This document shows positions 46,662 through 53,765 of a DNA stretch of 64,000 bases, piece after piece; positions within the stretch are counted from its first letter, which is position 1; each line of letters begins with the position of its first letter. The notes under the pieces were generated by a model. The model did no database searches and had not been told where the DNA came from. It worked only from the letters and a program-made list of their open reading frames with translations. This stretch comes from Karstenula rhodostoma CBS 690.94 (taxonomy: Eukaryota > Ascomycota > Dothideomycetes > Pleosporales > Didymosphaeriaceae), in NCBI GenBank assembly GCA_010093485.1, contig MU001498.1:115697-179696 (forward strand), written 5' to 3'. The position numbers were made by a program, and so were the translations under genes.

Positions 46662-47597
46662 TCACGAATTGAAGATGCGACTATACAGCTTCTCGTGTCT
46701 GCCAACCCAAAGATCCATGACTGGCACGCTCTGCCCTGCATCCTCCACCTTTCTCTCCCAACCCTCTTCCACCAGCCCTCTTATCCGATCCTGCAGCTCC
46801 GTACTTGCCAGCTCAGCCTGCGCCTGATACGGCCCCATCACGCTTGCGCGAACTGCCGCGCTGACTACCGTGCGCGCATGCGAGAACAGGAACAGGTACG
46901 CAGCGTCGCGCAGCGGGACGTCAAGCACGCAGGTGACGAGCCCCCACAGTGGTGCTAGATGCGCGTTGATGAGGTCGGATTTGCGAAGGGCCGCGGAGAA
47001 TGATGTGAGCGCTTCGGCCGCAGCGCTGCCTCGAGTCGGCGAGCTGTCATCGTCTGCCACGTTGGTGGCCGTCGGACTGTACTGCGTCCTGTAGCTGCGC
47101 TCCCACACCGCAAGCAGCGCCCGTCCCTGCGCTATGCTCGCCCGTCGCGCTACCGTGCACGGCGTGCTGGCGTCGAAGTCATTGTCGAGCGTCTCGATAT
47201 CTGCGGGACTGCGGTAGCCTGCTAGGACATACGGCAGCGCAGTGCTGGCGAGCGTGGAGAGCGACAGGCGGAGGAAGACGTGGAACGACGGTAGCTGCGA
47301 TGCGGATGGTGGGCTGGGCTTGTGGTGCGCAAGATATGACTCTAGCCCGCTGCTGAATGCGAAAGACCCCAGCGGCAGCGCCGAGTCGGCCAGGAGTAGC
47401 AGTGCATGCAGCGCTGTGGTTGTGAGAATTGGGGAGGGCACGCTATCGTGGGGTAGCAACGCACCTGCATCGCTGGTAGATTGAGAGGAATCCGCGGGCT
47501 CGTCTTCGAGAATCAAGCGGGACTTGGCATCTTGGAGACGTCGCTCGAGGTCGGCGATCTCATCTTTCAGAGATTGCTGGCTGTCGGAGGTCGTCAT
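46662..47597 (-). CDS. ureF: Urease accessory protein UreF
   Basis: A single exon of 311 residues from ATG 47597 (MTTSDSQQSLKDEIADLERR, a short helical leader). The UreF core reads ALLLLADSALPLGSFAFSSGLESYLAHHKP; the LLADSALPLGSFAFSSGLE stretch is the family hallmark. Later segments are RRASIAQGRALLAVWERSY, HLAPLWGLVTCVLDVPLRDAAYLFLFSHARTVVSAAVR and the C-terminal VMDLWVGRHEKLYSRIFNS. UreF acts with UreD/H and UreG to load nickel into apo-urease in the cytosol, so the fungus should use urea. Length and motifs are normal. Confidence 0.92.
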   Translation of the reverse strand: MTTSDSQQSLKDEIADLERRLQDAKSRLILEDEPADSSQSTSDAGALLPHDSVPSPILTTTALHALLLLADSALPLGSFAFSSGLESYLAHHKPSPPSASQLPSFHVFLRLSLSTLASTALPYVLAGYRSPADIETLDNDFDASTPCTVARRASIAQGRALLAVWERSYRTQYSPTATNVADDDSSPTRGSAAAEALTSFSAALRKSDLINAHLAPLWGLVTCVLDVPLRDAAYLFLFSHARTVVSAAVRASVMGPYQAQAELASTELQDRIRGLVEEGWERKVEDAGQSVPVMDLWVGRHEKLYSRIFNS

Positions 47598-48052
47598 GGA
47601 ATAGGTGTTGAGGAAGCATGACCAAGAGCTGTGCGGGCCGGGGCTTGGCAGCATCTTCGACACAGCGAGACCACCGTCGCGACATGTCAACAGTTTTATG
47701 AAGAACCCATCGCATTTCGCTCTTCATCAAAGAGCATGTGCTCTGCTAGTATTACAATTGATCGTCAAAAGTCGTGTCCCAACCTTCCCTTAACTCCAAT
47801 GAACCAAAACAATTCGTGACCTTCCATCCAAACCGATTCCGCCTGATGCCAAAACCAAACATTGCGACCAACATGGGCCCGGGTATCAAGATTACGCCCA
47901 CGAGCGCGTTGCATGTCGCCGCCCACAGGTCAGCCCGAAATAGCGCCTATACAACTCGACAGACACCCACAGACCTCCGCCAAACCACTTGTTAGACATG
48001 CGCACACGGACGAGCAAGCCGCCCGTATAGACCGACGAGACGGAGGCGAGTA
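47598..48052. other. Intergenic, ureF promoter / SPO12 3' side
   Basis: No gene or repeat recognised. Confidence 0.4.
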
Positions 48053-52531: not shown

Positions 52532-53573
52532 TGCGAGTGAAAATGATCAGCAAACCAGAAAAACAAGTAGGGAAATCACGACAAGAACGATTAGGGGGCG
52601 CAAAGAGGGGTACCTCTGGATGAGCTGGATTATACATCATCTCGACCAGCGTGTCCCGCTCTGGAAGCCCGAGACAAGCCTGGATGACGAACGCAGAGAA
52701 GGTGCCACAGGTCTTCCGGACCGCATTCTTGGTACAGCGCGTGGCTAGTGACGTCGGCCGGCAGGGACCCCGGATCTTTCGGGCCATCTGTGGCTTGTGA
52801 TGGTTCGTCAATTGGTTCATCGAAGCTTGTTTCCCTGATTGCAAAGCTTGTTAAAGCTTGTACTTGACGCTATTACCAGCCCACCAATCGCATCCGTCAA
52901 TTGGCATCCCGTCTCAAGCAGGGAAATATCGGAACATCTAAATTCCGGGCACTTGCGGCTTGGAAGCGCTTCCACGCACAAGCGATAACGTTGGCGGGGG
53001 CTTCGTTTAAAACTTGCTCAAGCCCATGCCGCAATATCACGTGCTCCGTTTTCTTCAGAGCCTCGGATTGCTGACCCGTACCCCACTCATCTTGAGGGCC
53101 TTGTTCACGAACTCGCTAGGGATGAAATGCGCAAGCGAAATGCCTGGGAGATGTTTTGTTTTATTCGTGGGGGTTTTCGGGGCATCTGTGACGACAGTGA
53201 ATAGGCGAAGTTATCTTCACACCAACAAGCCATGTCATTTCTACGTTCAAGAAGCAACATTGGTAGTAGCATACATCCATCATACTAGCTCACGCCTGCA
53301 TCTGTACATTTTTGGGGTACTGCGGAGGAAAAGTAGTTTAGTTCAGTCATCAGTCAAAATCGTTACACAGGAAAACGTCAATGGGCCGCACTCATCCGGG
53401 ATCTTCGGATGAGCTAGACTTAGATAGTACTTGGTGGGCTTCCAGGATCGTTATCGTGTGGTACCTAAGCACGCCGTATCTCAATGCAGCTCCTTAGCTT
53501 TTCCCCATTTTCGCGGTCTATATACAAGAAATTGCAAATTGTCGACATCAATCACATGATCTACATCATGCGC
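52532..53573. other. Intergenic, PLD promoter and upstream flank of the tRNA
   Basis: No gene, repeat or further RNA gene recognised in about 1 kb. Confidence 0.45.
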
Positions 53574-53720
53574 GGTGAGATGGCCGAGTTGGTATGTGCT
53601 ACCTAGTTCCCTACATCATTCCTCGACTAACGACATCAGGTTATGGCGCCAGGTTAAGGTTTATCTTAACATTACTTCCTGGTCACGTATGTGGCGTGGG
53701 TTCGAGTCCCACTCTCATCA
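53574..53720 (+). tRNA. tRNA-Leu(AAG) with an anticodon-loop intron and a D-loop insertion
   Basis: The acceptor stem GGTGAGA (53574-53580) pairs with TCTCATC (53713-53719), one G-T wobble, with discriminator A53720. The D-stem GCC (53583-53585) pairs with GGC (53645-53647). The anticodon stem CCAGG (53649-53653) pairs with CCTGG (53678-53682); the loop holds TTAAGG, anticodon AAG at 53656-53658. A 17-nt intron at 53660-53676 sits in the canonical place after position 37 and contains CTTAA, complementary to the anticodon loop. The long variable arm (CACGTATGTG) marks class II. The T-arm is GTGGG-TTCGAGT-CCCAC. The A box starts at 53581, the B box near 53699. The D-loop is split between G18 and G19 by a 48-nt insertion at 53592-53639. 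Removing both inserts leaves 82 nt, normal for tRNA-Leu. Confidence 0.9.
53592..53639 (+). other. Spliceosomal-type intron inside the tRNA D-loop
   Basis: The 48-nt insert begins GTATGT, has a textbook branch site CGACTAACG ending 8 nt before the acceptor, and ends ATCAG. Its length matches the 46-60-nt introns of this genome's protein genes. Excision joins ...GAGTTG to GTTATGG..., restoring a normal D-loop with the G18-G19 pair. The triplet GGT flanks the insert on both sides (53591-53593 and 53639-53641), compatible with a target duplication or an AG-GT proto-splice site. Confidence 0.8.
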
Positions 53721-53727
53721 CTATCGT

Positions 53728-53765
53728 CCGCTCCAAGAGCGGCCCTTCGGGAAACTTTCTTTTTT
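53728..53765 (+). terminator. Two hairpins and a T-run behind the tRNA
   Basis: CCGCTC-CAA-GAGCGG (53728-53742) is a perfect 6-bp hairpin, followed directly by CCC-TTC-GGG (53743-53751) and then a six-T run at 53760-53765 preceded by ctttc. A run of T is the RNA polymerase III terminator; the hairpins would lie in the 3' trailer. Confidence 0.6.

Follow-up and report, generated by a model that had tools for sequence, protein, structure and literature searches.

Introns of nuclear tRNA genes are treated in a 2026 review (PMC13149111) as a separate class, for whose removal a protein endonuclease, rather than the spliceosome, is responsible, and Cyanidioschyzon merolae has been counted as an exception among tRNA introns (PMC4090602). 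In 2017, U3 and U6 were named as the sole small structured RNAs in which interruptions were known to be frequent (PMC5832005). Introns in fungal U6 genes have been described (PMC10484740, PMC5832005), and the U6 gene of S. pombe has an mRNA-type intron (PMC10484740), which therefore provides a precedent for the spliceosome acting on a Pol III transcript. Open-licence titles and abstracts (a scope outside which most subscription papers and preprints lie) yielded no description of nuclear tRNA genes with spliceosomal introns. The type of intron described below is known; judged from the sequence, tRNA genes would be new as its hosts.

The locus was found in Karstenula rhodostoma CBS 690.94, in a stretch of 64,000 nucleotides (hereafter the window; contig MU001498.1, positions 115,697 to 179,696), and the search was extended to the whole genome assembly (44.3 Mb, 29 contigs).

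A tRNA-Leu(AAG) gene with two introns

An earlier note on the window had claimed a tRNA-Leu(AAG) gene that carries a spliceosomal-type intron in its D-loop in addition to the canonical intron of the anticodon loop, and both the sequence and ARAGORN agree with this. The features of the gene are as follows (positions of the window; A- and B-box consensus sequences and terminator function according to general knowledge):

53519..53524, plus strand: TATA-like element about 50 nt 5' of the gene (sequence; common to most tRNA genes read here)
53574..53720, plus strand: tRNA-Leu(AAG) gene with two introns that differ in type (sequence and ARAGORN)
53574..53591, plus strand: exon 1, tRNA positions 1-18 (sequence)
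53581..53592, plus strand: A-box-like stretch TGGCCGAGTTGG, the final G of which is base 1 of the insert (sequence)
53592..53639, plus strand: spliceosomal-type intron of 48 nt, GTATGT...CTAAC...CAG, at the G18/G19 junction (sequence; empty site in the C1 paralog by 12-mer)
53627..53631, plus strand: branch-site-like CTAAC with the putative branch A at 53630 (sequence)
53640..53659, plus strand: exon 2, from G19 through the anticodon AAG up to the anticodon intron (sequence and ARAGORN)
53660..53676, plus strand: canonical anticodon-loop intron of 17 nt (ARAGORN on the sequence without the 48 nt)
53677..53720, plus strand: exon 3, with the 3' strand of the anticodon arm, the variable arm, the T arm and the acceptor (sequence and ARAGORN)
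53699..53709 (C7:169395-169405), plus strand: intact B box GGTTCGAGTCC (pattern match)
53728..53742, plus strand: trailer hairpin CCGCTC-CAA-GAGCGG (by eye; other Leu copies have similar trailers)
53760..53765, plus strand: T6, Pol III-type terminator (sequence)

Read directly, the 48-nt insert is GTATGT ... CTCGACTAACGACATCAG. ARAGORN found no tRNA in the raw window, nor in the unspliced gene when anticodon introns of up to 80 nt were permitted, and Rfam gave no match across the window at the gathering threshold. Once the 48 nt were removed, ARAGORN returned a tRNA-Leu(AAG) with a 17-nt intron, with a cloverleaf, the anticodon AAG and a long variable arm; in the comparison with and without the insert, an idea of the earlier note carried out here with ARAGORN, a tRNA is called only without it. 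RNA folding of the unspliced gene was no better than that of shuffled sequences (z -0.01), and the gene without both introns reached z -2.23 against shuffles, its minimum free energy structure containing the acceptor, variable and T arms, with the D and anticodon arms absent.

Elsewhere in the window, an open reading frame with a UreF domain (PF01730, urease accessory protein) lies at 46662-47723 on the minus strand. A protein of the PLD family, also encoded in the window, has its named best matches in Paraphaeosphaeria sporulosa (Didymosphaeriaceae, Pleosporales; 84%) and Kalmusia sp. (78%), and matches Paraconiothyrium brasiliense with 80% over 89% of the query, which suggests a host within the Pleosporales close to Paraphaeosphaeria.

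The Leu gene family

The window gene and its flanks were used as the query of a whole-genome DNA search (E<=10; a missing match in such a search is not proof of absence). Six loci matched, all of them Leu(AAG) (4/4 interrupted) or Leu(CAG) (2/2 interrupted) genes with a GT-AG insert each. The insert lies between positions 18 and 19 in four genes (the window gene and those on C10, C5 and C9), at 24/25 in the gene on C1 and at 10/11 in the gene on C17. No intact Leu(AAG) copy, which the earlier note had suggested looking for, was found in this search at E<=10, and an exact pattern for the uninterrupted 5' half of the Leu gene had 0 matches in the genome. The same query, as a search for copies of the insert elsewhere, which had also been advised, returned the paralogs only. 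Since the C1 gene is uninterrupted at 18/19, it represents an empty site for the window intron, and reciprocally the four genes with inserts at 18/19 are empty at 24/25 (12-mer test).

The Leu(AAG) gene on C10 is the first of a tandem on the minus strand (L010/L151, C10:1112089-1112431) and is followed after 49 nt by a Gly(GCC) gene, both with spliceosomal-type introns; with no T5 between them, the pair looks dicistronic.

Interrupted tRNA genes across the genome

At least 31 GT-AG inserts were identified in at least 28 of about 109 tRNA genes recognised. The figure of about 109 is our own count and a lower bound, being the sum of the 28 interrupted and 81 uninterrupted genes (52 from Rfam, 29 found by patterns), with some ten tRNA-like loci with long inserts excluded. 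The earlier view of a single unusual gene therefore holds for the insert in the window gene and fails as to its isolation, since at least 27 other tRNA genes are interrupted. Besides the six Leu genes, these comprise five Gly(GCC), four Phe (with seven introns), three His, three Pro and two Ala(CGC) genes, and one each for initiator Met, Arg(CCG), Glu(TTC), Thr(CGT) and Val(TAC).

In the Rfam tRNA search of the genome, the best 62 of 1177 first-look candidates were scored and 54 reported; this non-exhaustive listing took in only two of the 28 interrupted genes and lacked several isotypes, and therefore patterns combining a B box with a T-run (T5) were used. The two genes among the Rfam matches are the initiator tRNA-Met, interrupted 3' of position 38 by GTAAGT...ATACTAAC...CAG, and an Ala(CGC) gene that is split at 25/26. 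Among the matches listed for the B-box and T5 patterns were Phe, His, Arg(CCG), Glu(TTC), Thr(CGT), Val(TAC), Pro and other genes. A T-loop pattern added three Gly(GCC) genes; the pattern GGTTCRAN{0,3}GTRAGT gave 23 matches vs 23 in the reversed control, and five of its matches correspond to Gly(GCC) genes whose T-loop is interrupted by an intron. Genes for Val(AAC) and Leu(TAA) were not found in this incomplete inventory (best 62 Rfam candidates plus patterns). A scan of viral contigs for related DNA found none.

Assigned by hand on the cloverleaf, the inserts occupy 13 positions (3/4, 5/6, 10/11, 13/14, 15/16, 18/19, 20/21, 24/25, 25/26, 38/39, 47/48, 53/54 and 60/61), and none of the 31 lies at 37/38, the canonical location of Sen-type introns. 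Most of the interrupted genes also have an anticodon intron. The exons delimited in this way can be very small, a point against the spliceosomal reading: exon 1 of Arg(CCG) holds just 3 tRNA bases, and in three Phe genes an internal exon of 6 nt would be required between two inserts.

After removal of the inserts, ARAGORN recognised a tRNA in 28/28 genes and the assigned isotype in 27/28, the exception being Arg(CCG), labelled Gly(CCC). From the unspliced sequences only ten of the 28 were called, 18 were missed, and nine of the ten were misnamed (Arg, misnamed when spliced too, is one of the nine), so that only the initiator tRNA-Met received its assigned isotype. tRNA annotation tools thus miss or misname such genes.

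Among the matches listed, every gene found is interrupted not only for the two Leu isoacceptors but also for Phe (4/4), His (3/3), Ala(CGC) (2/2), Arg(CCG) (1/1) and Val(TAC) (1/1). The whole-genome homology search was made for Leu only, and unseen uninterrupted copies of the other isoacceptors are therefore possible.

Several other loci were seen in the course of the inventory. Behind two tRNA-Tyr genes (L089, C6:1020600-1021400; L104, C22:96690-97190) the 3' portion of the tRNA is repeated once or twice, each time with a T-run of its own. An element like ATCCTACGAAGTCGAGGAT with inverted ends occurs in L020, L059 and L082, with variants in L019 and L100; it sits between or near the tRNA 3' end and the T-run of several unrelated tRNA genes. 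TRNA-like loci with a T arm and long inserts are L113 (C9:1051400-1054400), L127, L075, L096 and L109, several of them clustered and some with a TATA 5'. Candidate loci dropped for want of a clear tRNA were L064, L066-L069, L071-L073, L075, L076, L096, L108-L110, L112 and L113, and further L124, L126-L135, L137, L139-L147, L150, L152, L153 and L155-L159.

Splice signals and comparison with mRNA introns

The 31 inserts are 48-67 nt long (median 51). Their donors are GTAAGT (15), GTGAGT (6), GTAGGT (3), GTATGT (2), GTAAGC (2), GTACGT (1), GTAAGG (1) and GTTAGT (1), their acceptors CAG (17) and TAG (14). A branch-like NTRAN has its A 10-13 nt before the insert end in 30/31 cases and 8 nt before it in one, and in all 31 exactly one of the 1-4 equivalent placements of the insert is GT-AG. 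The strict pattern of donor, CTRAN and acceptor is present in 29/31 inserts (those without CTRAN being Phe C6, with TTAAT, and Gly C13, with ATAAT) vs 5 of 200,000 shuffled inserts, which makes a chance origin very unlikely.

For comparison, mRNA introns were inferred where the removal of a GT-branch-AG segment connected two open frames, which gave nine in the window and one in the reversed control. All nine, 46-70 nt long, show the strict pattern; because they were picked by similar signals, the comparison is partly circular for the signals, though not for the reading-frame test. In signals and size, the inserts match the inferred mRNA introns of the window, and the earlier description of the window insert as resembling an mRNA intron in style and size is borne out by 29/31 inserts and 9/9 inferred mRNA introns sharing the pattern. 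The anticodon introns of the same genes gave 0/23 for the strict pattern, a weak control, only 6/23 being long enough for it (>=33 nt) and one of these six (Leu-CAG C17) having been cut out wrongly in the analysis.

Could the inserts instead be removed by the Sen endonuclease, through a bulge-helix-bulge (BHB) as in C. merolae, or in the manner of nucleomorph tRNA introns, the GT-AG look being incidental? Ectopic introns in the D and T arms are described for C. merolae and nucleomorphs (PMC3978253, PMC4090602), and most of the interrupted genes do have anticodon introns as well. Yet this would leave the GT-AG borders of all 31 inserts and a branch motif with mRNA-like sequence and spacing unexplained, and the inserts measure 48-67 nt against 3-24 nt in the Guillardia nucleomorph as given in PMC4090602. 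Strict BHB-like pairing was seen in 0/29 inserts (2/31 lay outside the test), a weak argument in that at least three of four central pairs were present in only 8/23 of the control anticodon introns. We regard removal of the inserts by this route as highly improbable, and spliceosomal removal as the preferred reading.

Paralogs, empty sites and conservation

Nine insertion sites have an uninterrupted paralog whose sequence equals the joined exons across the junction. For initiator Met, Thr(CGT), Gly(GCC), Glu(TTC), Pro(AGG) and Pro(TGG) the agreement extends over 15-20 nt; for Leu 18/19, Leu 24/25 and Phe 53/54 it is limited to 12-mers (a 20-mer fails), because the paralogs have an intron close by. 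No empty copy was seen for Phe 47/48 among the paralogs found.

In seven paralog groups the exons are 89-100% identical, with means of 0.98 for Leu 18/19, 1.00 for Phe, His, Gly and Ala, and 0.92 (0.89-1.00) for Pro AGG/TGG. The inserts have mean identities of 56-82% (single pairs up to 90%), and 0.43-0.74 for their bodies without the ends; the anticodon introns diverge similarly (0.46-0.84). Exons that are conserved while the inserts diverge follow the pattern expected of functional exons and removable introns.

These data bear on the idea that the interrupted genes are pseudogenes produced by insertion of introns or introners, with intact copies elsewhere supplying the tRNAs, which in the earlier note took the form of an introner that had landed in the Leu gene and disabled it. 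Uninterrupted copies do exist for the six tRNAs whose empty sites span 15-20 nt. For seven isoacceptors, however, no uninterrupted copy was found (only the Leu count coming from a whole-genome DNA search), and these (Leu AAG, Leu CAG, Phe, His, Val TAC, Arg CCG and Ala CGC) would, with codons assigned by common wobble rules, serve 724 (16.6%) of the 4349 codons counted in eight long ORF segments, putative genes, of the window. The exons show no decay. With six interrupted Leu loci and conserved exons, the reading of the window gene as a single pseudogene was rejected, and in the absence of any intact Leu(AAG) copy among the matches the disabled-gene version loses its footing. It is very unlikely that the interrupted genes as a set are pseudogenes; functional genes with removable introns remain our preferred reading.

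Transcription signals

A TATA-like element at -25 to -90 was found in 23/28 interrupted genes and in 69/82 other entries (figures behind which there is no background rate), and a T5 within 120 nt 3' in 27/28 and 82/82, respectively, the exception being Leu C10. The 82 other entries include one gene pair twice (L006/L008) and omit the Tyr gene of L089. That these signals are mostly retained speaks against pseudogenes, too. The introns at 60/61 split the B box in five Gly(GCC) genes (L085/L151, L086/L149, L138), and several D-arm introns (10/11, 13/14) split the A-box region, which could lower transcription. In three of these five a second T-arm-like copy (GTTCGATTC...) lies 3' of the T-run, and by its sequence it might serve as an external B box; in the remaining two Gly genes with a split B box, no second T-arm copy was seen by eye.

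The U6 gene of this genome is interrupted as well. At L160 (positions 1501-1660, C3:1527927 onward) it is split after CACGCTCAA by GTGAGT...TACTAAT...GCAG; the Rfam U6 match extended into the intron, and the interruption itself was read by eye. The U6 intron contains a B-box-like GTTCGAGTCC, and a further GTTCGATTCC follows downstream. A 5'-truncated U6 copy without the intron (L161) lies close by on the opposite strand. With U6 interrupted as well, this genome is no stranger to Pol III genes that carry spliceosomal introns.

The promoter data and the U6 gene also allow us to weigh whether it is Pol II that transcribes the interrupted genes, perhaps within longer non-coding RNAs, with splicing as in mRNA and no need for a link between Pol III and the spliceosome. 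Spliceosomes normally act on Pol II transcripts, and the A-box region or B box is split in Leu(CAG) C17 and the five Gly(GCC) genes. Against this stand the T5 close behind 27 of the 28 genes, the TATA-like elements, which are as frequent as in uninterrupted genes, the second T-arm copies behind three of the five Gly genes with a split B box, and the intron in U6, a Pol III gene in other fungi. Transcription by Pol II appears extremely unlikely, and we prefer Pol III.

Origin of the introns

Among 731 pairs of introns from different groups (mRNA and U6 introns included), six had z>4 and none z<-4. The outlier is the pair Leu(CAG) C17 and Pro(AGG) C5 (z 8.8, the next being 5.1), whose introns lie at different tRNA positions; their likeness hints, at the sequence level, at intron movement between tRNA genes. 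When the genome was searched with the Pro intron, only the two Pro(AGG) paralogs matched, and since the similar Leu intron was missed, diverged copies could be overlooked in such a search. A mass invasion by introners was rejected: no family of near-identical copies was seen, and the searches with the window gene and the Pro intron gave paralogs only.

Proposed maturation pathway and implications

Taken together, the data make it very probable that the window tRNA gene is functional and transcribed by Pol III, that its 48-nt insert is a genuine U2-type spliceosomal intron, and that its precursor is matured by the spliceosome and the tRNA endonuclease. Of the options raised earlier, the one strongly favoured is that two splicing systems act on one Pol III transcript, in view of conserved exons and the interruption of all Leu(AAG) and Leu(CAG) copies found. 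Pol III would transcribe the window gene from the TATA-like element and the A and B boxes to the T-run; the nuclear spliceosome would recognise GU-AG and CTAAC, excise the 48 nt as a lariat and join G18 to G19; the tRNA would then fold, RNase P and tRNase Z would process its ends, and the 17-nt anticodon intron would be removed by the Sen endonuclease together with tRNA ligase, the last two steps following the standard pathway. The two D-loop G residues hold the tRNA core together, and as the window intron splits them, spliceosomal removal probably precedes that by Sen.

Where every gene found of a whole isoacceptor family is interrupted, spliceosomal maturation would be obligatory for that family, and the cell probably needs its mRNA-splicing machinery for many tRNAs. 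We think it likely, with somewhat less assurance than for the window gene, that the spliceosome is an obligatory tRNA-maturation enzyme in this lineage, where families consist entirely of Pol III genes interrupted by spliceosomal introns, many of these genes depending on the spliceosome and Sen one after the other, and where Pol III genes are acquiring, losing and exchanging introns, possibly through reverse splicing. If so, three Phe genes would need two spliceosomal removals around a 6-nt exon in addition to removal of the anticodon intron, the all-interrupted families would read roughly a sixth of the codons in the sampled ORFs, and with about a quarter of the recognised tRNA genes carrying mRNA-type introns, translation would depend directly on the spliceosome. 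Such genes would offer natural systems in which to study how the spliceosome acts on Pol III transcripts, how minimal exons (3 and 6 nt of tRNA) are spliced, how tRNA folding and splicing compete, and how introns are gained, the last because interrupted and empty sites occur side by side in one genome in molecules whose structure is known for each base.

Comparison with known systems

Like the canonical Sen introns at 37/38, the inserts interrupt tRNA genes and have to be removed, and the window gene has both kinds; they differ from Sen introns in position, length, GU-AG borders and the presence of a branch site. rRNA is a Pol I transcript, unlike tRNA. Ascomycete rRNA introns are comparable as spliceosomal introns in a structural RNA (PMC11889510). 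The ectopic BHB introns of C. merolae and those of nucleomorphs share with the inserts the location in D and T arms and the occurrence of more than one intron per gene (PMC3978253, PMC4090602), but they have a BHB motif or are 3-24 nt long (Guillardia), and GU-AG borders with a branch site are not described for them in the sections of these sources used here. The introner-like elements of Dothideomycetes (PMC4457414) give rise to new spliceosomal introns in the same fungal class; the introns here, in contrast, are not near-identical, with one similar pair only.

Parallels are also found in small structured RNAs. Fungal U3 snoRNA genes have spliceosomal introns and intronless paralogs (PMC5832005), but tRNAs are not included in the U3/U6 set as presented there. 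As in fungal U6, an mRNA-type GU-AG intron interrupts a Pol III gene, and U6 is interrupted in this genome, too; the B-box-like stretch inside its intron recalls Schizosaccharomyces U6, as indicated by the title of a reference in PMC10484740. U6 is, however, a component of the spliceosome, and its intron in S. pombe has been ascribed to reverse splicing near the catalytic bases (PMC10484740), whereas tRNAs are not spliceosome components, and here many genes and positions are hit.
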